IMG/VR virus record: IMGVR_UViG_3300026455_000022
Span: 1 to 43,856 of that record
Length of the DNA: 43,856 nt
From: a virus
Strand: one strand, 5' to 3'
Both the position numbers and the translations under genes were made by a program. The notes under the pieces are model-generated. The model did not search any database and was not told the origin of the DNA. It was given only the letters and a program-made list of their open reading frames with translations. Numbering within the stretch: position 1 is the first letter of the stretch; each line of letters starts with the position of its first letter. Positions 12,519-21,647 of the stretch are shown one piece after another.

Positions 12519-13268
12519 ATGGCTAAGCCTGAGATTGAATTTACAACGCCAGAAGAAGAGCTTGAATATGCTGCTAACGCATTGAAAAAAGCAGGCGTAA
12601 GCTTGACGCAATTTGAAGCAGTAAGAGAAACCGAAGTAAATGGCGGGCGTGGTTCTGCTGGTTATTCCAAGGAAATGCTTGGTCTTAGGCGATGGATGGT
12701 GCAAGAGCTTCTTGCTGCAAAGATGAGCAATCGTCAAATTGCAAATGTTCTAAAGCTGAGCAAGGAAACAGTCAATGGAGATAGGCATTTCAATAGACAG
12801 TTATACACAGAAGAAATTCTCAAGAATCAAGACGTGCATCGAGCACGTCTTCTAAAGGAGCAAATGGATTTGAAAGACCTGGCTCTTGATAGTTTTGAGA
12901 AGAGCAAAAGGAAGCGCGTGATAACAATGATGGAAGGTGGTGACGATGGAAGCAAAGAGATGATCAAGATTGAAGAAAGCGCTGGTGATGCATCGTTTCT
13001 CAATGTGGCAAAGAACTCCCTTGTTGAACAAGCAAAGCTTCTTGGTCTCAACGAAATCAAACAAGAATCACAACAAGACAATTCCTACAGGAAATTCCTC
13101 AAAGATCTTTCCACTACCATTGCAAAAGAAAAAGAAGCCAATGCCACTGAAGAACGCAGGAAGAATTCCTTGCCTGCATCAGCAGAGGTGAGCTTTGATG
13201 CAGAACCAGAAAAAGAGGAATGGCCTGAAGCCATTCCTTTACAAACAATTAATAAAGACGACTATTGA
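12519..13268 (+). CDS. Putative terminase small subunit (HTH protein)
   Basis: A 249-residue protein. Residues about 65-95 form a helix-turn-helix, LLAAKMSNRQIANVLKLSKETVNGD, very like the N-terminal HTH of phage small terminases. It is followed by a long charged, helical, coiled-coil region and an acidic tail. That order (DNA-binding HTH, oligomerising helices, tail that binds the large subunit) fits TerS. The large-subunit gene is about 14 kb away on the other strand, so context does not help. A transcription regulator is the alternative. Confidence 0.45.
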   Translation: MAKPEIEFTTPEEELEYAANALKKAGVSLTQFEAVRETEVNGGRGSAGYSKEMLGLRRWMVQELLAAKMSNRQIANVLKLSKETVNGDRHFNRQLYTEEILKNQDVHRARLLKEQMDLKDLALDSFEKSKRKRVITMMEGGDDGSKEMIKIEESAGDASFLNVAKNSLVEQAKLLGLNEIKQESQQDNSYRKFLKDLSTTIAKEKEANATEERRKNSLPASAEVSFDAEPEKEEWPEAIPLQTINKDDY

Positions 13269-14091: not shown

Positions 14092-14532
14092 ATGGACTCG
14101 CATCAGCCTTCCTTCATTGTTGAAGGCACACCATTGGCCCCCACAGTTCATATTGTGCTTCCTCCTGAGCTTCAGGAAGATGCCAAAGCTCTAGCAGCAG
14201 AAAACGTGCATCCTGCTTGGTCTAAGGCCCATCGTCGTGGTCGCCATTTCGTGATAACGACCAATTTGCTAGATGATCTTTCTGAGTTAGCGGACTATGC
14301 CCGCGTGGGCATTGAAGAGCCAGAGCCTGATCTTTCCAAGCGGAAGCGCCAGGCTTTGCAAATTCTCCTAGACAGGACCAACAGGCATGCCGTGTTGGAG
14401 CCCATGGGCACTTGCCATTGCATTGCTACCAAATGGCGAGACAAGCCATTGCCTAGCCACAAAGCTGCCTATCGCACCACGCTAGAACTCAGGGAAAAGG
14501 CAGGCAATGTAAAGAATTGTTACAACGCTTGA
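14092..14532 (+). CDS. Hypothetical protein
   Basis: A 146-residue protein starting MDSHQPSFIVEG. The N-half is beta-like (TVHIVLPPELQE). The middle is helical (LLDDLSELADYARVGIE, then RKRQALQILLDRTNRH). It closes the operon that begins at 13314. The HLR1-like box of the next unit overlaps its last codons. Confidence 0.55.
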   Translation: MDSHQPSFIVEGTPLAPTVHIVLPPELQEDAKALAAENVHPAWSKAHRRGRHFVITTNLLDDLSELADYARVGIEEPEPDLSKRKRQALQILLDRTNRHAVLEPMGTCHCIATKWRDKPLPSHKAAYRTTLELREKAGNVKNCYNA

Positions 14533-14557
14533 CCTTGCCTGCTGAAGTCGGCATACT
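14506..14557 (+). promoter_or_regulatory. Promoter with HLR1-like tandem box (cassette 1)
   Basis: AATGTAAA (14506-14513) and ATTGTTAC (14516-14523) are spaced two bases apart. Together they match the inverse complement of HLR1 with one mismatch in 16. TTGACC (14529-14534) and CATACT (14552-14557) are 17 nt apart, so this is also a good sigma70 promoter. The gap from box to -10 is 28 nt. Start codon at 14605. Confidence 0.6.
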
Positions 14558-14604
14558 ACTGGGCATGCGGGCGAGAGCTTGCATACCCTTTCTCTTTCAA
14601 ACAG

Positions 14605-14940
14605 ATGACTACAAGGTTTTATCATTGGTTAGGCGAAGAAGGCGGCATTAGCGCCTTTCATGGCAACAATCTTGTGATGAGCCTCGGCTCTCCCATGGTC
14701 AATGTCAATATCAGCCTTCAAGAGCTACAAGAATTTATCTGCACATTAGAAAAGGCTTCTGATGAAGAGCCTAACGTTGTGCAGCAAATAGCTCTTAATT
14801 CTATTCGCCACGTATTTCAAGCAGCTCTGCAGCATCACAAGAAGGACCATGAAGCCCTCGTCGAAGAAGCTCCTACTGGCGCAGATCTGGAAGAATATCT
14901 GCTTGCTTACGCGCGTGCCGTCAAAGAAGGAGCTCTGTGA
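14605..14940 (+). CDS. Hypothetical protein
   Basis: A 111-residue protein starting MTTRFYHWLGEEGG. It has a beta-rich N-terminus (AFHGNNLVMSLG, VNVNISLQELQEF) then helices. The leader has GCGAGAG and CTTTCTCTTTC before ATGAC, related to the 19-20 kb leaders, with no Shine-Dalgarno site. First gene of a run to 15943. Confidence 0.6.
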   Translation: MTTRFYHWLGEEGGISAFHGNNLVMSLGSPMVNVNISLQELQEFICTLEKASDEEPNVVQQIALNSIRHVFQAALQHHKKDHEALVEEAPTGADLEEYLLAYARAVKEGAL

Positions 14941-14942
14941 TC

Positions 14943-15143
14943 ATGGGCTTGCTTAAAAATCAGGAAGCTATTCGCGACTATTCCTACATTGAACTTGCCA
15001 TTGATTTCGGCAGGCGCATCACTGCAGAAGAAATCTTTGCCTTCACAGAGCGCATAAGAGACGAAGTGGAACAACATGCTGGTATTGATTATTGCGTAAA
15101 TATTAAACGCATTGACCTTGAATTCCCGGAGGATGAACAATGA
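14943..15143 (+). CDS. Small hypothetical protein
   Basis: A 66-residue protein starting MGLLKNQEAIRDYS. It is helical, then beta-like (YCVNIKRIDLEF), with a ferredoxin-like alpha/beta rhythm. GTG 14937, overlapping the upstream stop, is an alternative start. Coupled to the next gene by ATGA. Family not recognised. Confidence 0.55.
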   Translation: MGLLKNQEAIRDYSYIELAIDFGRRITAEEIFAFTERIRDEVEQHAGIDYCVNIKRIDLEFPEDEQ

Positions 15144-15304
15144 TTTGTGAAGAATATGAAAACGATCCCGAGCTTGATTGGGAGCGTCCTCAGCGCTTAA
15201 ACAGACAGCTTTCTCTGCAACAGTTGGAGAGTCGTCTTGAGCTATGGAAACAAAAGCATGAGGATATATGTCTTAAGCTCTATCGTGCCGCCACTGGCAT
15301 TTAA
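15140..15304 (+). CDS. Small hypothetical protein
   Basis: A 54-residue protein starting MICEEYENDPELDW, charged and helical (LSLQQLESRLELWKQKHEDI). GGAGG precedes the ATG by 7 nt and ATG overlaps the upstream stop. Function unknown. Confidence 0.55.
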   Translation: MICEEYENDPELDWERPQRLNRQLSLQQLESRLELWKQKHEDICLKLYRAATGI

Positions 15305-15306
15305 TC

Positions 15307-15546
15307 ATGGCTACCAAACTTCAGGAAATGATTGGCGAAACGATTTGTCAAGAGCCAAACAGTAGCTACGTGGCGGAAGTCATTGAAACAATGGCAAAAT
15401 GGTTTGATTTTGTTTTAGAAGACATAGGCATTGAACCATCGGCCATCCCTGCTCTTCTCCGTTGGCAATATCATGAAACGGACTGGCCAGATTTTGGAGA
15501 ATCCATTTTGCCTCCAGAAGATGCTTTTGAAATTAACCACGAGTAG
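15307..15546 (+). CDS. Hypothetical protein
   Basis: A 79-residue acidic helical protein starting MATKLQEMIGETIC. It begins 2 bp after the previous stop, so it belongs to the same operon. Pattern: helix, FDFVLEDIGIEPSAIPALLRW, acidic tail. No recognised family. Confidence 0.55.
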   Translation: MATKLQEMIGETICQEPNSSYVAEVIETMAKWFDFVLEDIGIEPSAIPALLRWQYHETDWPDFGESILPPEDAFEINHE

Positions 15547-15565
15547 TCATTACCACTAATCACCC

Positions 15566-15943
15566 ATGACACAACAACATCCCATCACCCCACCACCGGA
15601 GCTGGTGCAGCAGTGGGACTGCGAATGGAGGGAGCAGCAAAACGCCCCAGTTATCGGCTGGTCGGCCAATCTTCTTGCCTATGTCGCTGCTCGCGCCGCA
15701 CAATGGGGCGCCGACCAGGAACTGGAGGCGTGTTGTGAGTGGCTTCACTGGCAAAACCTGGCCACACATCCCGAACTGATCCCTTCGCTCCGCGCCGCCC
15801 GCCGCCCCAAGCCACCAAGCTTGAAGGAGCAGGCACTCCTTGCGCTATCGCACCTGCTCGATGGTGCAGCTCACTCGATGGACACAACGGAGCCTGCCGA
15901 TTACATCCGCCGCGCCCTTGAACAACTTCCCGACGCCCAGTAG
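15566..15943 (+). CDS. Synechococcus-type conserved protein
   Basis: A 125-residue protein with the pattern PPPELVQQW...ARAAQWGADQELEACCEWL...LRAARRPKPPSLKEQALLAL. I recognise this from Synechococcus and their phages, where it is always hypothetical. Base composition is visibly more GC- and C-rich than its neighbours, suggesting exchange with a host-type genome. ATG follows a weak leader (AATCACCC). A terminator lies 25 bp past the stop. Confidence 0.65.
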   Translation: MTQQHPITPPPELVQQWDCEWREQQNAPVIGWSANLLAYVAARAAQWGADQELEACCEWLHWQNLATHPELIPSLRAARRPKPPSLKEQALLALSHLLDGAAHSMDTTEPADYIRRALEQLPDAQ

Positions 15944-15958
15944 CCACCTTCTCTAAAT

Positions 15959-16114
15959 TCAATTAACGGCCCCATCAGGGGCCTTTTCTTTTGCCCAGCT
16001 ATGGTCTCCAGGAATAGGCTCAGTTCCATATTCCCAATCATCATATTGTTCACCATTTCTCAACCATCGTGCAAGACGTTCACGCTCTTGCTCTGCAGAC
16101 AGTTTCCTTTCCAT
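15959..16114 (-). CDS. Small hypothetical protein
   Basis: A 51-residue protein starting MERKLSAEQERERL, with a charged helix and then an acidic aromatic end (YDDWEYGTEPIPGDHSW). ATG 16114 is preferred because the upstream extension reads through repeats and a terminator. The plus-strand terminator hairpin is encoded by its 3' end. Weakly supported. Confidence 0.4.
   Translation of the reverse strand: MERKLSAEQERERLARWLRNGEQYDDWEYGTEPIPGDHSWAKEKAPDGAVN
15968..15987. terminator. Terminator between convergent genes
   Basis: GGCCCC (15968-15973), ATCA loop, GGGGCC (15978-15983), TTTT. It serves the plus-strand run and lies inside the last codons of the convergent minus-strand gene. Confidence 0.75.
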
Positions 16115-16121
16115 AAAGAAT

Positions 16122-16163
16122 CGGCTGGCCTTGTATAGCCTACCTCCGGCTGGCTTTGTATAG
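16122..16163 (-). repeat. Tandem 17-bp repeat upstream of small minus-strand gene
   Basis: Two copies of a 17-mer (16122-16138 and 16147-16163) with one mismatch, at 25-bp period. Each contains TATACAA on the minus strand, so the pair may be a double operator or tandem -10 elements for the gene starting at 16114. Confidence 0.45.
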
Positions 16164-16173
16164 GCACAAAGAA

Positions 16174-16191
16174 AGGGGGCCAAAGCCCCCT
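16174..16191. terminator. Symmetric hairpin terminator
   Basis: AGGGGGC, CAAA loop, GCCCCCT with pyrimidine tracts on both sides, so it can stop transcription on either strand. From here to 16465 (about 270 bp) I see no gene. A TTGACA at 16432 lacks a good -10. Confidence 0.55.
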
Positions 16192-16465
16192 CTCTTTCAC
16201 AGCCTCCGATACCCAACAACAACTAGGGGAAATCTCCTCGCCTAGAAGGGAAATGTGCCTCTCAGGAGAATGACTAGCTCCCTGGCAAAGCCATACAGCA
16301 TTGCCCACACTTCCGTCAAGTGTCCACCCTCACGGCCCGCCTTGCGACAGGAGAAGCAACTAAGCCTCTAGAACCGACTGCTCCATAAGCATAGCATCCC
16401 ATGACACCCCTGGCAGTTCCCTTGACAATCGTGAGACAATAGGAAGACTGTCGTCCGCGAGGGCG

Positions 16466-16852
16466 ATGGGCCTCTCTAGCTATTTCACCATCTTGATGCT
16501 TTCACGATTTCTTCTTTCCCTGCTCCTTCTGGCCCCTACCATGCCCGCCCACGCTCTGTCAAGACAATGTGGCACTGCCTCTCATTACGGCATTGGTGAT
16601 GGCTATGACGGACAACGCACTGCTAGTGGCTCTCGGTTCAATGCTTACGGCTCTACTGCTGCCCATCCATCTCTTCCATTTGGCACGCGCCTTCTCGTTA
16701 CAAACCGTGACAATGGAAAGCAGACGATTGTCATGATCAATGATCGCGGCCCATATTACGGCGGACGCATTCTTGATCTCTCCTACGGGAGCTTCTCAAA
16801 GCTTGCTTCGCCTGGACAGGGGACTGCCCGCATTTGCTTCTCTCGCATTTGA
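16466..16852 (+). CDS. RlpA-like secreted double-psi beta-barrel protein
   Basis: A 128-residue protein: signal peptide (SRFLLSLLLLAPTMPAHA, cleaved near residue 31), then an RlpA domain with GTASHYGIGDGYDGQRTASGSRF, STAAHPSLPFGTRLLVTN, INDRGPYYGGRILDLS. The His in AAH and the Asp in NDRGP correspond to active residues of the septal lytic transglycosylase RlpA. It is the size of a minimal RlpA domain without SPOR. It would act on peptidoglycan in the periplasm. M11 at 16496 gives a more typical signal peptide and may be the true start. Confidence 0.75.
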   Translation: MGLSSYFTILMLSRFLLSLLLLAPTMPAHALSRQCGTASHYGIGDGYDGQRTASGSRFNAYGSTAAHPSLPFGTRLLVTNRDNGKQTIVMINDRGPYYGGRILDLSYGSFSKLASPGQGTARICFSRI

Positions 16853-17037
16853 TGACCATGCTTACCAACATCGCTTCGTTCATGCTTGTCACCACTGCTT
16901 TCGGGCTTGGTGCTTTCGCTATTGTTGCTGCCCCTAATGCAATGCCCAATCACGAGGGCTTGACAAAATGCATGCAGCTCCATCCAGAACGGTATTGCCG
17001 AATTGCCAATGGCTTCTCGGTGGAACCAAGGCCGTGA
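16852..17037 (+). CDS. Small secreted or membrane protein
   Basis: A 61-residue protein starting MTMLTNIASFML. It has a hydrophobic segment to about residue 32 with AAPNA at a possible cleavage site, then a short polar part with two Cys (KCMQLHPERYC) able to form a disulfide. ATG overlaps the stop of the RlpA-like gene (TGATG), so both envelope proteins are made together. Confidence 0.6.
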   Translation: MTMLTNIASFMLVTTAFGLGAFAIVAAPNAMPNHEGLTKCMQLHPERYCRIANGFSVEPRP

Positions 17038-17064
17038 TAGGCTTTGTCACGGAATGTTCTGCTG

Positions 17065-17099
17065 AGCCCCTTGACAGGGGCTTTTTTGTGGCCTACCAT
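17065..17099 (+). terminator. Terminator with a -35 element in its loop
   Basis: AGCCCC (17065-17070), loop TTGACA (17071-17076), GGGGCT, six T. The loop is a perfect -35, and TACCAT (17094-17099) lies 17 nt later as a -10. The terminator of the secreted-protein operon thus overlaps the promoter of the next unit. A GCCCC-TTCG-GGGGC tetraloop hairpin follows at 17119-17132. Confidence 0.6.
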
Positions 17100-17216
17100 T
17101 CTGCCGGGTGGAACCACAGCCCCTTCGGGGGCCTTTCACCAGCCCTTTACCAGCGATGGTGCCTCCAATGACTTGTACTCCCTTTCCTGACAAATTCCCA
17201 GCGTGCTATTTCCCGC

Positions 17217-17411
17217 ATGGTGAAAGACGCATCAGGGTATTCTTTGTCTTGTTATTCCGCTGATGATCGCGCTGCTGCTCGCACTAAGCTTCTGGCCATG
17301 GTTCCTAAAGCGCCTGATCACGCCCCTGTCAACAAGCCAGCAAAGCGTACAAAGGATTATTTGCGCACGTTAGCTGACAGCATGGAAGATAGCGTCTGGA
17401 GATTCTTGTAA
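17217..17411 (+). CDS. Small basic hypothetical protein
   Basis: A 64-residue protein starting MVKDASGYSLSCYS, with an AAARTKLLAMVPK helix and basic middle. TTTCCCGC precedes the ATG. An alternative 31-codon ORF from ATG 17168 overlaps in another frame. Family not recognised. Confidence 0.5.
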   Translation: MVKDASGYSLSCYSADDRAAARTKLLAMVPKAPDHAPVNKPAKRTKDYLRTLADSMEDSVWRFL

Positions 17412-17636
17412 TTAATGGGGCAGAGCTGGAATGAAATTGTTCCAATAATGCGCTCCTTGAATATGCTGGCCACTACTCGGACTATGTGGTGGGGAAAAAC
17501 AATTGATTGCCGTCAATTGATAATCTAGCCTCTATTCTGAACACAAGGTCCCATCGAGGAGTGTAAGGAGATCCAGGGTCTGTTCATGCACCTGATAGCC
17601 TTGCATTAAGCGCATGCTCGTAAGTCCCCAACCATT
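17412..17636 (+). other. Gap with possible 37-codon ORF and repeated CAATTG
   Basis: About 225 bp with no firm gene. ATG 17415 to TAG 17528 encodes 37 residues (MGQSWNEIVPIM...), plausible but unsupported. Two CAATTG palindromes 16 bp apart near 17500-17520 could be an operator. AAGGAG at about 17566 is too far from the next ATG to matter. Confidence 0.3.
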
Positions 17637-17840
17637 ATGAAATTCTCCGTTGGTTTAGTCGTCGATCTATATGATTTCGGCTTTAAACAATGGAGAGGGG
17701 AATATATCGTGACAAAAATATATCCTGAAACTGGCCTTTACAGAGTAAAGAATGTCAGGACAAATAGCCAGCAGACGGTTAAAGAAAAAGCTCTCCGCAT
17801 AGGCCGCCTTGGCCCATTCCGCATTGAAAGCCTCCATTGA
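17637..17840 (+). CDS. Small SH3/KOW-like protein
   Basis: A 67-residue protein starting MKFSVGLVVDLYDFG. It has the beta rhythm of a small barrel (GLVVDLYD, WRGEYIVTKIYPETGLYRVKNV, QQTVKEKALRIG), as in SH3/KOW-like phage proteins. Its stop abuts the HLR1-like box of cassette 2. Function unknown. Confidence 0.6.
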   Translation: MKFSVGLVVDLYDFGFKQWRGEYIVTKIYPETGLYRVKNVRTNSQQTVKEKALRIGRLGPFRIESLH

Positions 17841-17891
17841 TTGTTACGAAATATGACAGGCCCCGCTCAAGGGGCCTTTTTGCTGTATTGT
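17840..17891 (+). promoter_or_regulatory. HLR1-like box, terminator and -10 (cassette 2)
   Basis: ATTGTTAC (17840-17847), two bases, AATATGAC (17850-17857), then 28 nt to TATTGT (17886-17891). Between them lies a terminator, GGCCCC-GCTCAA-GGGGCC with TTTTT (17859-17881). No TTGACA-like -35 is present, so the box would have to recruit polymerase. Confidence 0.55.
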
Positions 17892-17923
17892 TCTGGGGTG
17901 TTCAGGCAGAGATGCCTCCTCTC

Positions 17924-18202
17924 ATGGACAAAACCGCTCTTATCAAGCAGTTCATCTTCAACGCTGGCAGCAGCATCGTCAGCGTGGAATTCATCAAGGC
18001 TGATGGTTCCGTTCGTCGCCTCCAGTTCAATCCCCGCGACAGCAAGGAAATCAAGGGCACTGGCACTCCCATAAAGAAGCCCAGCATCGTGCGTTGCCGC
18101 GATTTTCGCATTGCTCGCACTGCAGGCGAAGGTGCATGGCGCTCCTTTGATTGCGAGCGCGTGATCAGCGTTAAAAGCAACGGCCAAGCCATTTATTTCT
18201 GA
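17924..18202 (+). CDS. Small conserved-looking beta protein
   Basis: A 92-residue protein starting MDKTALIKQFIF. It is a beta-rich basic protein (SSIVSVEFIKADGSVRRLQF; ACREF-like segment CRDFRIA; WRSFDCERVISV). The C-terminal W-R-S-F...R-(V/I)-I pattern is reminiscent of WYL-type modules, but it is too short for a confident call. ATG at 17915 (GCCTCCT leader) is an in-frame alternative. First and only gene of its cassette. Confidence 0.55.
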   Translation: MDKTALIKQFIFNAGSSIVSVEFIKADGSVRRLQFNPRDSKEIKGTGTPIKKPSIVRCRDFRIARTAGEGAWRSFDCERVISVKSNGQAIYF

Positions 18203-18243
18203 TTGTTACAACGGGGCCGCAAAGCCCCAAGCTGATATATAGT
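18192..18243 (+). promoter_or_regulatory. HLR1-like box, hairpin and -10 (cassette 3)
   Basis: TTTATTTC (18192-18199, degenerate) and ATTGTTAC (18202-18209) are followed after 28 nt by TATAGT (18238-18243). A GGGGC...GCCCC hairpin (18213-18228) lies between. Start codon at 18279, 36 nt on. Confidence 0.5.
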
Positions 18244-18278
18244 TCTCTCAACGGCAGAGATGCCTCCTCCCAAGTTCC

Positions 18279-18500
18279 ATGACTTCCTCCTTGCCTCCCA
18301 TCAAGCGCACCTATCGCGTTTACGTCTGCATCCCCTGGGGCGCAGAAAAGGAATACAAGCGCTTTGAGACTGTCACTGTCGATGCAGTGGACGAAGCTGC
18401 TGCTGCCTATGTGGCACGTGATCGTTATGAACTGTTCGCTCGCGTGCATAACAGCGAAGTGCAGTGCCGCGTAGAAGAACTGCCTCGCGCTGCCTGGTAA
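18279..18500 (+). CDS. Small hypothetical protein
   Basis: A 73-residue protein starting MTSSLPPIKRTYRVYV. The beta-helix-beta pattern (YRVYVCIPWG, VDEAAAAYVARDRYELF, EVQCRVEEL) is loosely like the repeated small domain seen at 13745 and 19419. The leader contains CCTCCTCCC before ATGAC. Function unknown. Confidence 0.55.
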   Translation: MTSSLPPIKRTYRVYVCIPWGAEKEYKRFETVTVDAVDEAAAAYVARDRYELFARVHNSEVQCRVEELPRAAW

Positions 18501-18501
18501 A

Positions 18502-18537
18502 CCTCCGAACCCTCCGCACCCTCCGCAACCTCCCCAA
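18502..18537 (+). repeat. Four tandem copies of a 9-bp CCTCC repeat at a start codon
   Basis: CCTCCGAAC, CCTCCGCAC, CCTCCGCAA and CCTCCCCAA follow one another, and the last A is the first base of the next ATG. Each unit repeats the anti-Shine-Dalgarno core CCTCC. There is no GGAGG. Confidence 0.8.
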
Positions 18538-18794
18538 TGGCAATTGTTCCCACTCTCCATCTCAACGGCACTGGCAAGACAACGCTCCGTGATGAATACG
18601 CTGCTGCTTACGATGCGCTCACCAAAGCCCTAGAAGCTTTTGCTTCTACAACGTGCAACGGACGCGATTTCTATCCACAAGGCCCTGATGCTTACTATCG
18701 GGCTCGTGATGAACGCTCTAAAGCTTTTGGCCATTTAAAAGCAGCAAGGAAATACGTTGGTGAAGTGCTGATGGGAATTTGCGATCAAATGTGA
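18537..18794 (+). CDS. Conserved phage protein (HLNGT / NGRDFYPQGPDA type)
   Basis: An 85-residue protein. PTLHLNGTGKTTLRDEY, ALTKALEAF, NGRDFYPQGPDAY and the helical end match a small protein family I recognise from many phages and bacteria, always hypothetical. It is translated from the tandem CCTCC leader and shares a transcript with the gene at 18279. Confidence 0.7.
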   Translation: MAIVPTLHLNGTGKTTLRDEYAAAYDALTKALEAFASTTCNGRDFYPQGPDAYYRARDERSKAFGHLKAARKYVGEVLMGICDQM

Positions 18795-19027
18795 TGGAAA
18801 CAATGAACTCAGGACTTTCTATCAATCAGCGCAATCTTTATTCCTATTTTCTTGTGCATCAGAAGCGCAATAAAAATGCGCCATGCTTTATACCGAAAAG
18901 CTGCCTCGTTGGCAATCGTTTAGAAACGTATTTAAATGCTCTTACAGCCTTGGAAAGGAAAGGGCTCATCCGCGTGGATCGTTCTGCTCCTAACTACACC
19001 GGCTGGATCATGCTGCCAGCTTTGTAA
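18794..19027 (+). CDS. Small winged-helix-like protein
   Basis: A 77-residue protein. NQRNLYSYFLVHQKRN, FIPKSCLVGNRLETYLNALTALERKGLIRVD and WIMLPAL give the helix-helix-recognition helix-wing order of a winged helix. It may be a small DNA-binding regulator. ATG overlaps the previous stop (TGATG). Its stop lies inside the HLR1-like box of cassette 4. Confidence 0.55.
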   Translation: METMNSGLSINQRNLYSYFLVHQKRNKNAPCFIPKSCLVGNRLETYLNALTALERKGLIRVDRSAPNYTGWIMLPAL

Positions 19028-19072
19028 AGCTTTGTAACAGGCGCCGCTCAAGGCGCCTTCATGCTGTATTGT
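19021..19072 (+). promoter_or_regulatory. Perfect HLR1-like box, terminator and -10 (cassette 4)
   Basis: TTTGTAAA (19021-19028), GC, TTTGTAAC (19031-19038) matches all 16 positions of the inverse complement of HLR1. TATTGT (19067-19072) follows after exactly 28 nt. A GGCGCC-GCTCAA-GGCGCC hairpin (19040-19057) lies between, with only TTC after it. Confidence 0.65.
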
Positions 19073-19110
19073 TTGTCCAACGGGGCGCGAGTCCCTCCTT
19101 TTCAAGATCA

Positions 19111-19326
19111 ATGACCCTCACCGACAAAGAACAGCTTCTCTACAGCTCCATCCAGGAAGGCATGGATGAGCCTGGCTGCGGCTGGCTTCACGAGCTATCT
19201 CCTTTCAACAATGATCACGTTTGCGCTGGCGTGCTGAGCGCTTTGATCAGCAAAGGACTAGTACATTCCTACCAAGACGAAGATTTTCCTGATTGCTACT
19301 GGGTGAGCCTGATTGAACAAGCCTGA
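19111..19326 (+). CDS. Small winged-helix-like protein
   Basis: A 71-residue protein starting MTLTDKEQLLYSSI. Helices and a wing-like end (VLSALISKGLVHSYQDEDF, YWVSLIE) parallel the protein at 18794. The two may be diverged duplicates. ATG 19111 is preferred because the longer frame covers the leader. The leader has GCGAG and CCTCCTTTT. Confidence 0.55.
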   Translation: MTLTDKEQLLYSSIQEGMDEPGCGWLHELSPFNNDHVCAGVLSALISKGLVHSYQDEDFPDCYWVSLIEQA

Positions 19327-19328
19327 GC

Positions 19329-19380
19329 TTTGTAACGATTTATGAACAGGGGGCTTCTGGCCCCCTTTCTGCTGTATTGT
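19329..19380 (+). promoter_or_regulatory. HLR1-like box, terminator and -10 (cassette 5)
   Basis: TTTGTAAC (19329-19336, perfect half) and TTTATGAA (19339-19346, two mismatches) are followed after 28 nt by TATTGT (19375-19380). The terminator AGGGGGC...GCCCCCT with TTTCT (19348-19366) lies between. Confidence 0.55.
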
Positions 19381-19418
19381 TGTTTCAACGAGGCGCGAGT
19401 CTCTCCTTCCCAAGACCA

Positions 19419-19709
19419 ATGACTTCCTATTCCATCCTCTGCACCAACTCCCGCAATGGCGGCCAGTGCGAGCTTCTCATTGATGCTGCTTCCCCTGAAC
19501 AGGCTACGCAGCACGTGGCAGATTCCCGCCCCCACTACATCATCAAGACCATCGAACCAGTAGAGCGCAAATTCGTCTGCCATGGTTTCTGCCGCAGGAA
19601 TCAGCGTTATGACGCACTTGCATATATCGCCTTCTCTGCTGACCAGGCTCGTTCCGTGTGCCAACAGCTCCACCCCGATTTCGCCATTGACCGCATCGAG
19701 CTTGTGTGA
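19419..19709 (+). CDS. Protein with two tandem small repeat domains
   Basis: A 96-residue protein starting MTSYSILCTNSRNG. Residues about 1-48 and 50-96 are two copies of one pattern: strand, then ASPEQATQHVADSRPHYIIKTIEPV, and FSADQARSVCQQLHPDFAIDRIELV. The protein at 13745 carries a single copy. Probably a beta-alpha-beta domain for protein or nucleic acid binding. ATG 19419 is chosen over the longer frame, which covers the leader. Confidence 0.6.
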   Translation: MTSYSILCTNSRNGGQCELLIDAASPEQATQHVADSRPHYIIKTIEPVERKFVCHGFCRRNQRYDALAYIAFSADQARSVCQQLHPDFAIDRIELV

Positions 19710-19754
19710 AGCTTTGTAACAAAGGGGCCATCAGGCCCCTTCTGCATATATATT
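19703..19754 (+). promoter_or_regulatory. HLR1-like box, terminator and -10 (cassette 6)
   Basis: TGTGTGAA (19703-19710, two mismatches) and TTTGTAAC (19713-19720, perfect) are followed after 28 nt by TATATT (19749-19754). The terminator AGGGGCC-ATCA-GGCCCCT (19723-19740) lies between. The box overlaps the end of the upstream gene. Confidence 0.55.
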
Positions 19755-19793
19755 GGTTTCACTGAGGCGCGAGCTTCTCCTCTTCTTCTTCCA

Positions 19794-20066
19794 ATGACTG
19801 ACCGTCTTATCTTCACCATGGCTGCCTTCTCCCCCACCCAGGGGCAGTGGTGGCGCTCCTGCGCTCCTAAAGGCACTGAGCGGCGCGTGAAGCTTGTTGC
19901 TTCTTGCCAGGGCTTCTGGCTATGGACAGCAGACTTCCGTGATGCTCGCACCAGCAAGCTACTCACCAGCAAGTTCTTCTGCACCAAGCCCAACAGCGAT
20001 GAGCCAGTGGCGCTTTTTGAAAGCGCTGATGATCGCCAGCGTTGGATGCAGAAGCAAACTGCCTGA
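19794..20066 (+). CDS. Hypothetical protein
   Basis: A 90-residue basic, Trp-rich protein starting MTDRLIFTMAAFSP, beta-like (RRVKLVASCQGFWLWTADFRD) with a helical end. The leader has GCGAG then CTCCTCTTCTTCTTCC before ATGAC. Function unknown. Confidence 0.5.
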   Translation: MTDRLIFTMAAFSPTQGQWWRSCAPKGTERRVKLVASCQGFWLWTADFRDARTSKLLTSKFFCTKPNSDEPVALFESADDRQRWMQKQTA

Positions 20067-20075
20067 TTCGCACAA

Positions 20076-20094
20076 GGGCCGCCACAAGCGGCCC
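20076..20094 (+). terminator. Hairpin GGGCCGC-CACAA-GCGGCCC
   Basis: Seven-pair stem just after the gene at 19794, followed by a pyrimidine tract that also serves as leader of the next gene. One of five dispersed copies of this hairpin type. Confidence 0.6.
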
Positions 20095-20112
20095 GCTCTC
20101 CTCTTTAAAACA

Positions 20113-20301
20113 ATGCCTGATATTATTTCTATCCTTGCCATTTCAAAGAAAGGCAAATCTCGCATTGGCAATAGCGTCACTGCTGCCATTGTTGAACAAG
20201 ACCATCATGACAAGCTATTTATTGTCATTCCTGGCATGAATCAATGTCGATGGATTAAAAAAGACAACGATCCCGATTTTCGTATTATTGCTGAGATTTG
20301 A
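20113..20301 (+). CDS. Small SH3-like protein
   Basis: A 62-residue protein starting MPDIISILAISKKG, beta throughout (VTAAIVEQ, KLFIVIPG, RWIKKD), like other SH3-like phage minis here. The CTCTCCTCTTT leader precedes the ATG. It is followed after 2 bp by the next gene. Confidence 0.5.
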   Translation: MPDIISILAISKKGKSRIGNSVTAAIVEQDHHDKLFIVIPGMNQCRWIKKDNDPDFRIIAEI

Positions 20302-20303
20302 TC

Positions 20304-20603
20304 ATGCTTACTATTGCCACTTTTCAAGACAACGGCCCGTATTTCCCTCCCAGCAAGGGCCGCTACCAGGCGGCCCGTCTGAGAGACCTGCTATTTCACG
20401 TGAGGCTCGCTATGGAGGACAGGGAGGACACTATTGCCATCTTTGACCAGCAAGGCTGCTGCAAAGGCCTCTGGAGGCGCGATCTGGAGGGGCATGTGGA
20501 TAGTGCTGGTGATGCCATCATTGACCATGAAGGCTATGAACTGATGCGCCCTGATACCAAGGAGCAATGGCTGTTCAATCGCCTGCAGGAGCAGTTCAAA
20601 TGA
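20304..20603 (+). CDS. Hypothetical protein
   Basis: A 99-residue protein starting MLTIATFQDNGPYF, acidic, with IAIFDQQGCCKGLWRRD in the centre. A GGGCCGC...GCGGCCC hairpin (20357-20376) is encoded by codons 18-25, so this dispersed hairpin also occurs within genes. Coupled to the next gene by ATGA. Family not recognised. Confidence 0.55.
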   Translation: MLTIATFQDNGPYFPPSKGRYQAARLRDLLFHVRLAMEDREDTIAIFDQQGCCKGLWRRDLEGHVDSAGDAIIDHEGYELMRPDTKEQWLFNRLQEQFK

Positions 20604-20758
20604 TTCTCGTGGACTTTTTCTCCGAAGATTGCTGTAAAGGCACTGAATTGGTGGAAGGCTGGTATTTCTATGCTGATGATGATGAAAGCTTTGTAGGAGG
20701 ACCGTTTACCAGCGAAGAAGCCGCCCTAAAGGCGGCTTTTGATGGTCATGGTTGGTAG
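20600..20758 (+). CDS. Small hypothetical protein
   Basis: A 52-residue acidic protein starting MILVDFFSEDCC. EGWYFYADDDESFVGGPFTSEEAALKAAF resembles small phage proteins with a Y-F-Y-x-D...GPF-x-(S/T)-xEEA pattern. Its 3' end encodes a terminator (20720-20740). Confidence 0.55.
   Translation: MILVDFFSEDCCKGTELVEGWYFYADDDESFVGGPFTSEEAALKAAFDGHGW
20720..20740 (+). terminator. Terminator inside the end of a coding sequence
   Basis: GCCGCC, CTAAA loop, GGCGGC, TTTT, within the last 13 codons of the gene at 20600. Placing the terminator in the coding end saves space, as in the HNH gene at 1994. Confidence 0.65.
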
Positions 20759-20842
20759 GGAAAATAATTGCTAGCATGGCGAAACATCGCGAGATGCCAG
20801 TCTCGTGACGTTTCTAACCACTACCAAAGGAGCAGTTTGGCC

Positions 20843-20989
20843 ATGGCTGAATACAAGCATAGCAGCGTGCCTGCAGGGTTTAAGGAGATCCCTGGGTATG
20901 ACGGACGCTATTTCATCTGCGTTCAATCTAAAGAAGGGGCAAGATTTGCCTACATTGGCAGAAGTGAGCACAATTGTAGGCGGCAATAG
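20843..20989 (+). CDS. Overlapping small ORF with NUMOD4-like stretch
   Basis: A 48-residue frame starting MAEYKHSSVPAG, with AGGAG 10 nt before its ATG. GFKEIPGYDGRYFI resembles the NUMOD4 motif found in homing endonucleases. It overlaps the gene at 20898 in another frame for 92 bp. It may be a remnant of a homing gene, or a translated leader that delivers ribosomes to the next start. Confidence 0.35.
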   Translation: MAEYKHSSVPAGFKEIPGYDGRYFICVQSKEGARFAYIGRSEHNCRRQ

Positions 20990-21134
20990 CCTCACTTTCT
21001 TGCCTGTTTGTGATGGTGACTTGACCGACTTCAGGCCTTCTGATCCTACTGGCGGCCACATCATCGGCCTACGCTTCAAGCTACCCCACGGCATCGCCTA
21101 CACTGACGCCGAAAAATCAGCCTTCTGTATGTAG
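20898..21134 (+). CDS. Conserved-looking hypothetical protein
   Basis: A 78-residue protein starting MTDAISSAFNLKKG. TLAEVSTIVGGNSLTFLPV and GGHIIGLRFKLPHGIAYTDAEKSAF look strongly constrained. AAGGAGAT lies about 9 nt before ATG 20898, supporting this start over the longer frame. A terminator follows. Confidence 0.6.
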   Translation: MTDAISSAFNLKKGQDLPTLAEVSTIVGGNSLTFLPVCDGDLTDFRPSDPTGGHIIGLRFKLPHGIAYTDAEKSAFCM

Positions 21135-21140
21135 CCTGCA

Positions 21141-21158
21141 GGGCCGCAATTGCGGCCC
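21141..21158. terminator. Palindromic hairpin GGGCCGC...GCGGCCC
   Basis: An 18-bp near-perfect palindrome followed by CATTGTTT, after the gene at 20898. One of the dispersed hairpin family. Confidence 0.55.
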
Positions 21159-21185
21159 CATTGTTTACCCTCTCACAATTGCACA

Positions 21186-21380
21186 ATGTTCCACATCACA
21201 ACCACAGAATACGGCCAAACTTTCAACGCCGAAACATTCGCCACGTTTGATGAGGCCTGCGACTTTCTGAACATGCTAGAAATCTCTCAGGAAGATGCCT
21301 ACAGTTTCGAGCGTGAATGTTCCATTGCTGAGCTTAAGCAGCAGATCCTAGATCTTATGACTGAGAATCAAGAACCCTAA
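21186..21380 (+). CDS. Small hypothetical protein
   Basis: A 64-residue acidic protein starting MFHITTTEYGQTF, with a beta start and then helices (FATFDEACDFLNML, SIAELKQQILDLMTENQ). The leader has CCCTCTC and no Shine-Dalgarno site. Last of the small plus-strand genes. Confidence 0.55.
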   Translation: MFHITTTEYGQTFNAETFATFDEACDFLNMLEISQEDAYSFERECSIAELKQQILDLMTENQEP

Positions 21381-21417
21381 GAGGCCCCCACAAGCTCCCA
21401 CAAGCGGCCAAAACCTA

Positions 21418-21443
21418 GCCCGGTATGTTTCATCATGCCGGGC
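21418..21443 (+). terminator. Terminator after the small-gene block
   Basis: GCCCGGTATG, 6-nt loop, CATGCCGGGC, then CTTTC. A ten-pair stem with one G-T pair. Confidence 0.65.
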
Positions 21444-21516
21444 CTTTCTAGCGTCAGGATGCCGATCCTAGGAAGTGCTGGCGGCCAGTCCCGGACTAGC
21501 TGTCCTGTAGGGATGA

Positions 21517-21582
21517 GGGATTAACTTTCTCCACAGGGCTGTGGAAAACTAATCCCGACCTCCCAACTCGGGATTAACTTTT
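21517..21582. repeat. Origin-like repeat cluster with DnaA-box-like sites
   Basis: A 40-bp imperfect inverted repeat (21517-21556) has arms starting GGGATTA and meeting at CCACAG-GG-CTGTGG. The minus strand at 21540-21548 reads TTTTCCACA, the form I know for cyanobacterial DnaA boxes, and the other arm has a one-mismatch copy. GGGATTAACTTT recurs directly at 21570. The intergenic stretch 21381-21748 holds no gene. An origin or a partition/regulatory site is inferred. Confidence 0.4.
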
Positions 21583-21594
21583 GCAACAATCCGC

Positions 21595-21647
21595 CGTGTA
21601 ACGTATTGTGACAAACGCTTGACATTTGCGCCGATCTAGCCTAGCCT
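21595..21647 (+). promoter_or_regulatory. Promoter with HLR1-like tandem box (cassette 7)
   Basis: CGTGTAAC (21595-21602) and ATTGTGAC (21605-21612) form the tandem box. TTGACA (21619-21624, perfect -35) and TAGCCT (21642-21647) are 17 nt apart. The box-to-(-10) gap is 29 nt. The nearest plus-strand gene is more than 1 kb downstream, so the product may be a noncoding RNA. Confidence 0.5.

Follow-up and report, generated by a model that had tools for sequence, protein, structure and literature searches.

HLR1-like tandem boxes as a probable conserved promoter element of S-CBS4-like cyanosiphoviruses, with host RpaB as candidate regulator

The HLR1 elements of cyanobacteria are direct repeats of the form KTTACAWW-N2-KTTACAWW bound by RpaB, an OmpR-family response regulator (PMC13421787, in part). 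RpaB acts as an activator from sites at about -66 to -45 and as a repressor where its site overlaps the start (PMC13421787; also PMC6331805, PMC11633204). Cyanophage genes have also been placed under the host PhoBR system, including pstS of P-SSM2 and genes of S-PM2d (PMC10976474, in part), and a cyanophage under a host response regulator is to that extent a known kind of arrangement. Here we analyze the IMG/VR virus record IMGVR_UViG_3300026455_000022 at its full length of 43,856 bases (the window), in which an earlier note had described seven HLR1-like tandem boxes and had proposed that they place an array of small genes under host light/redox control. Our analysis reveals a promoter cassette that is almost certainly real and conserved, and we assign a probability of roughly 0.6 to the full explanation, in which the boxes would be activator sites with RpaB as the best candidate to read them.

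The phage boxes share with HLR1 of PCC 6803 and PCC 7942 the same direct repeat, present in the phage as its reverse complement, and, as predicted, an upstream position of the activation type (PMC13421787, in part). They differ in preceding small genes of unknown function, at a fixed spacing and with a hairpin in the gap and a GNRA-loop hairpin in the leader, and RpaB is their proposed reader. The PhoBR case is similar in that a cyanophage uses a host two-component response regulator through host-type boxes, but it concerns the phosphate response and includes gel shifts with PhoB (PMC10976474, in part), whereas here the box is another one and a standard cassette stands before many unrelated small genes in S-CBS4-like siphoviruses. 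A literature search, screened at the level of its listings, surfaced no account of RpaB sites in phages, and PMC5785211 holds no mention of HLR1.

All seven HLR1-like 18-mers lie at the positions and on the strand given for them in the earlier note. Scored against WWTGTAAM-N2-WWTGTAAM they reach, by position, 15, 13, 12, 16, 14, 14 and 13 of 16, with the box at 19021 perfect and that at 14506 one short, both as claimed; the distance to the -10-like hexamer is likewise the one claimed, 28 nucleotides (nt) in six cases and 29 nt at 21595. The weakest box is that at 18192 (12/16, four mismatches), with distal half TTTATTTC. The bare pattern with up to three mismatches matches the window 22 times on both strands, against 10.6 expected and a maximum of 20 in 100 shuffles. 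This count gives the boxes only moderate support, and we therefore turned to the fixed spacing and to promoters defined without the box. Box and fixed gap together are strongly supported: at a score of at least 13/16 and a gap of exactly 28 nt the window holds five sites and each of 40 shuffles none, and at 12/16 or better it holds six, with a shuffle mean of 0.12 and a maximum of 2 (the list of -10 hexamers in this test included CATACT, given in the earlier note, and TAGCCT). The box alone is not diagnostic, since one scoring 15/16 at 16714 on the minus strand lies under an ORF (open reading frame), away from any such promoter and with no -10 of the cassette kind behind it.

Promoters in relatives were collected independently of the box, by searching for TANNNT, a GNRA hairpin and an ORF in 180 sources totaling 2.59 Mb, some of them overlapping. 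The search returned 167 matches representing 100 distinct promoters, of which 75 were retained as a core set. The 25 set aside had -10 hexamers of other kinds or a 'CGC' leader, which by eye is located next to tRNA-like ends. A box of at least 11/16 occurs at -48 to -45 from the -10 in 52 of the 75, compared with a mean of 0.71 and a maximum of 3 in 200 shuffles; with copies at least 70% identical removed, it is found in 32 of 49 core promoters. The HLR1-type direct repeat WWTGTAAM with a 2-bp spacer is present at 13/16 or better in 54 of the 75, and spacers of 0, 1 and 3-8 bp each occur in at most 8.

The reverse test, starting only from a box of at least 13/16 and a -10, yielded 67 box-first sites. 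A tetraloop leader hairpin follows in 47, with a GCGA or GAGA loop in 45 of these, and the gap between box and -10 is 28 nt in 46 sites, 29 in 15, 30 in 4 and 27 in 2. At a looser threshold, which admits many chance sites, the GNRA hairpin is present in 51 of 142 (0.11 in shuffles). Later pattern scans together with five extra loci brought the material to 115 loci, a sample biased by its search pattern and including 53 loci without a site; they contain 85 distinct sites, among which 46 had not been recorded before, and the hairpin is present in 28 of those 46. A scan for TTGTAACA-N24-TGTATTGTT gave 48 stretches that were judged mostly chance given the size of the collection, five of which were examined later. 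The ORFs downstream of the 67 sites fall into 22 families, a few of which may reflect misassigned ORFs, and 11 of the 22 contain more than one member; the cassette is a module that recurs ahead of genes unrelated to one another. Some promoters that run against the direction of the array (in L028, L032, L069, L146 and L162) also have the box 28-29 nt away. Genome-wide, the count at 11/16 with a listed -10 exceeds all five shuffles in three of six sequences (the window, G023 and G025) and does not in S-CBS4, G022 and G017; the last (78.8 kb) has no site of 13/16 or better and none with a GNRA leader. These comparisons support the boxes as a promoter element conserved in a family of S-CBS4-related cyanosiphoviruses.

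Within the window, five of the seven sites share one cassette, consisting of the box, a G+C hairpin in the gap, a TATTGT, TATAGT or TATATT hexamer, 9 or 12 nt, a hairpin with GCGA or GAGA loop, a pyrimidine-rich stretch and an ORF. The view of the boxes as a promoter element in the earlier note holds, although that note had missed both the gap hairpin and the GNRA leader. The features are as follows, all on the plus strand.

14506-14523, plus: box, 15/16, of a variant promoter with TTGACC (14529-14534), 17 nt and CATACT (14552-14557)
14561-14588, plus: long leader hairpin, GAGA loop, one mismatch, read by eye
17840-17857, plus: HLR1-like tandem box, 13/16
17859-17876, plus: G+C gap hairpin, then TTTTT; from its sequence, terminator-like for the upstream ORF
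17886-17891, plus: -10-like TATTGT, 28 nt past the box
17904-17917, plus: leader hairpin, GAGA loop
17924-18202, plus: small ORF, 92 amino acids, phrog_2267 (unknown function)
18192-18209, plus: box, 12/16, weak distal half
18213-18228, plus: G+C gap hairpin
18238-18243, plus: -10-like TATAGT
18253-18264, plus: leader hairpin, GAGA loop
18279-18500, plus: small ORF, 73 amino acids
19021-19038, plus: HLR1-like box, perfect 16/16
19040-19057, plus: G+C gap hairpin
19067-19072, plus: -10-like TATTGT
19082-19095, plus: leader hairpin, GCGA loop
19111-19326, plus: small ORF, 71 amino acids, no match in Pfam (E up to 0.05) or PHROGs
19329-19346, plus: box, 14/16
19349-19365, plus: G+C gap hairpin
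19375-19380, plus: -10-like TATTGT
19390-19403, plus: leader hairpin, GCGA loop
19419-19709, plus: small ORF, 96 amino acids, with six related ORFs in other phages behind the same kind of promoter
19703-19720, plus: box, 14/16, overlapping the stop codon of the preceding ORF
19724-19739, plus: G+C gap hairpin
19749-19754, plus: -10-like TATATT
19764-19777, plus: leader hairpin, GCGA loop
19794-20066, plus: small ORF, 90 amino acids, no match in Pfam (E up to 0.05) or PHROGs
21595-21612, plus: divergent box, 13/16, with 29 nt to TAGCCT and a TTGACA-17 element

The gap hairpins of the five cassettes have stems of 5-8 bp. On the assumption that the -10 hexamer starts at -12, the boxes would occupy about -58 to -41, close to where RpaB activates (-66 to -45), and the first base of the leader hairpin would be at about +4 to +7. 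The promoters at 14506 and 21595 are of a different type, because both also have a -35-like TTGACC or TTGACA 17 nt from the -10; no GNRA leader was seen at 21595.

The relation between box and -35 was assessed on 93 promoters, the 100 of the box-free search less those with a 'CGC' leader. The box stands alone in 51, with a -35 in 2, a -35 stands alone in 8, and neither is present in 32 (Fisher p 0.017). Box and -35 thus seldom co-occur, as expected if a box-bound protein replaces the -35 contact. In the explanation we favor, S-CBS4-like cyanosiphoviruses use a standard promoter cassette in which the boxes would serve as activator sites. The direct repeat of 10-bp period, at about -58 to -41, would be bound by a response regulator of the OmpR family from the host, in all likelihood RpaB in its phosphorylated form, and the bound protein would assist transcription initiation by host RNA polymerase, as the promoter usually has no -35. 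The gap hairpin may end the previous transcript, giving each small gene a transcript of its own, and at the 5' end of most transcripts a GNRA-loop hairpin would probably act to protect or mark the mRNA.

Host genomes hold comparable elements. Among 16 picocyanobacterial genomes, the pattern WWTGTRAMNNWWTGTRAC with at most one mismatch has 11 matches, five of which lie directly upstream of hli ORFs (L376, L377, L382, L383, L384). One further match, in L380, is separated from an hli ORF downstream by about 0.3 kb. The hli genes are known RpaB targets in model strains (PMC6331805, in part). Five of 11 matches at hli are unlikely by chance, because hli-type genes make up a very small part of these genomes, though the genomes are related. 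The element at hli is oriented with KTTACAWW toward the gene and close to the start codon, a placement that would suit repression. Upstream of psaA, in a sample of 12 of 30 loci (the remainder include psaB and partial genes), a related element is present in 11 loci (10 of 11 genomes), in eight exactly as GGATTGAACCTTTGTAAC and in the others as close variants. The phage half-site, as TTTGTAAC or a close variant, forms the proximal half of this element, which is oriented like the phage boxes and precedes a TATACT, TATAGT or TATGCT hexamer by 30 nt in ten cases and 29 in one. At psaD, TTTGTTGACGGGTGTGAA occurs in 10 of 15 loci and variants in the other five. An exact TGTAAC dimer has no match in eight host genomes. 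The phage sites would therefore represent an HLR1-type repeat at an activation-type place, and several of them match the published consensus better than the elements at host psaA and psaD do.

Several results weigh against reading the boxes as RpaB-bound activator sites, and we consider them here along with the alternatives on which they bear. In 53 of the 67 box-first sites, the stop codon of the longest open frame upstream is located between -11 and +14 relative to the start of the box, in many cases within the box itself and at least 20 times on a TAA or TGA of the distal half; as the stop is so often within the box, part of the box sequence could serve as a stop. Along with the G+C hairpin downstream of the box in the five cassettes of the window, this would fit a box that is no regulator site and reflects a stop-codon/terminator context or an A+T-rich element of the UP type. 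We regard such an origin as very improbable. The box often doubles as the end of the preceding gene, yet its distance to the -10 is the tighter of the two, held to 27-30 nt, whereas the stop distance varies more and puts the stop 35-199 nt upstream in 14 of the 67 sites. The 10-bp repeat, moreover, favors G and C at set places and is not a plain A+T tract, and both box and spacing are kept at two sites whose gap has no 5-bp stem, L146 at 8401 on the minus strand (stem of 3) and L519 (stem of 2).

Gap stems of at least 5 bp occur in 59 of the 75 core promoters, yet shuffles average 44.6, and the evidence for a general terminator role of the gap hairpin is weaker because such stems are this common in shuffles. 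Leader folding energy was set aside as a poor discriminator, with just 12 of 67 leaders exceeding 95% of their own shuffles in stability. Among the core promoters, 23 of 75 score below 11/16 at the expected place, and a GNRA leader hairpin of this kind is lacking in 20 of the 67 box-first sites. S-CBS4 has -10/GNRA promoters with poor boxes, one of 11/16 with the right gap and one of 14/16 with a gap of 41 nt. On the host side, the 11 pattern matches, compared by number, do not exceed the reversed control, which gave 9, the distal half at psaA is ATTGAAC, 8 bp upstream and not a 10-bp repeat, and the psaA elements score only 2.5-5.4 on the phage matrix. The 16 psaF loci yielded only a low-scoring GTCACAACTTGTTTCGAG (0.1), and the 80 psaC loci were uninformative, most of them scoring 9-12 of 16 and two from Prochlorococcus reaching 14. 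Predicted Pho boxes in a cyanophage proved unreliable until tested (PMC10976474, in part), a caution that applies to the prediction of boxes in phage genomes generally.

Concerning the identity of the regulator, the likeness to HLR1 described in the earlier note stands as far as repeat sequence and half-site spacing are concerned, and RpaB as the actual reader remains the best candidate only. Boxes of other regulators were sought in the 75 core promoters and rejected: none has an NtcA box (GTA-N8-TAC), Pho-box repeats (YTTAAYYW with a 3-bp spacer, at least 13/16) or a CRP-type box (TGTGA-N6-TCACA, up to two mismatches). The RpaB model NF045944 gives 395 bits in a Cyanobium genome (L434). A close paralogue, presumably RpaA, passes the same model with 362 bits against a cut-off of 330, and two host genomes each have ten OmpR-type matches. 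A different OmpR-family regulator of the host, for instance RpaA with its clock output, or several in competition, might therefore read the boxes, all the more so as competition between RpaA and RpaB at sites common to both is described for PCC 7942 (PMC13421787, in part). We consider this unlikely, although it is the foremost of the alternatives, in that the consensus and 2-bp spacer are those published for RpaB and HLR1 (the motif compared being that of RpaB) and five of the 11 host matches lie at hli, an RpaB target class.

A DNA-binding protein encoded by the phage, with the likeness to HLR1 arising by convergence, could also read the boxes. The window encodes at 12519-13268 a protein that matches phrog_645 ('Rnase E') and has a weak helix-turn-helix (HTH) match (GerE, E 0.0014, below the Pfam cut-off), and gp021 of S-CBS4 is annotated as a transcriptional repressor. 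However, a search of 12 phage records, perhaps including fragments, gave no OmpR-type DNA-binding domain (PF00486) at E up to 0.1, and this favors a host factor; the box resembles the host psaA, psaD and hli elements; and the genes needed first could presumably not wait for a phage activator. A phage-encoded reader is accordingly improbable. The protein at 12519-13268 has, for its part, only weak Pfam matches, of which the HTH is the best.

Judging by its portal protein, 70% identical to that of S-CBS4, the window is a relative of this Synechococcus siphovirus, whose host is Synechococcus CB0101. The identified genes are ordered much as in S-CBS4, with a Sak-like protein, primase/helicase, small-gene array, ribonucleotide reductase, terminase, portal, protease and major head protein. 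The array between primase and ribonucleotide reductase holds six of the seven boxes, with the seventh just beyond. The array genes would be early genes, because of their many short ORFs of unknown function, the position of the array and the host-type promoters. The promoter at 21595, the weakest, adjoins a putative replication origin at 21517-21588, with inverted TTCTCCACAG/CTGTGGAAAA and repeated GGGATTAACTTT, and the cumulative GC skew has a local minimum at about 21-23 kb. We take TTCTCCACAG/CTGTGGAAAA to be DnaA-box-like.

The collection contains variants of these promoters as well. A 4.5-kb viral contig (L498) carries five box-GNRA cassettes in a row, with gaps of 28-30 nt. Many of the 20 box-first sites without a GNRA hairpin have a recurring short leader, with TTGTTCGC ahead of the ATG, and this hairpin-free leader is common to the box promoters of some gene families (L140 plus strand 1074, L148 plus 2181, L162 plus 1696 and others). 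A second promoter class (L164 plus 2240, L164 plus 2897, L175 plus 2962) combines TAAATT and a GNRA leader hairpin with no clear box, and has a TTGACA-like -35 in L164. In L059 minus 7527, L065 minus 7508, L079 minus 3230 and others, a stretch resembling a tRNA 3' end by eye is followed by TACACT, a CCCCGYAAGGGG hairpin and a 54-codon ORF; these TACACT/CCCCGYAAGGGG promoters beside tRNA-like ends were excluded from the cassette counts.

More tentatively, this cyanosiphovirus family might have wired its early program as an RpaB regulon, using a transferable cassette of HLR1 box, spacer terminator, promoter without a -35 and GNRA-capped leader before newly gained small genes. The photosynthetic redox state of the host would then set how strongly the takeover genes are expressed, and the GNRA leader might mark their mRNAs for survival or for handling by a phage factor. 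Light/redox control of infection through the cassette, as put forward in the earlier note, is a good hypothesis and not a result. To our knowledge, how viruses read the light state of their host is an open question. Cyanophages need light for optimal reproduction (PMC5082946, in part), and a phage promoter family operating on a host light regulator would, if true, be a concrete, testable link to that state. It would extend the hijacking of host response regulators from nutrient control through PhoB to light/redox control, and a different regulator, together with a cassette that includes its own hairpin and GNRA leader and is spread over many genes, would be a variation on the known PhoBR arrangement. 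The cassette provides a way to recognize probable early takeover genes in uncultured cyanophages and, if RpaB reads the boxes, the photosynthetic state of the host could influence infection.

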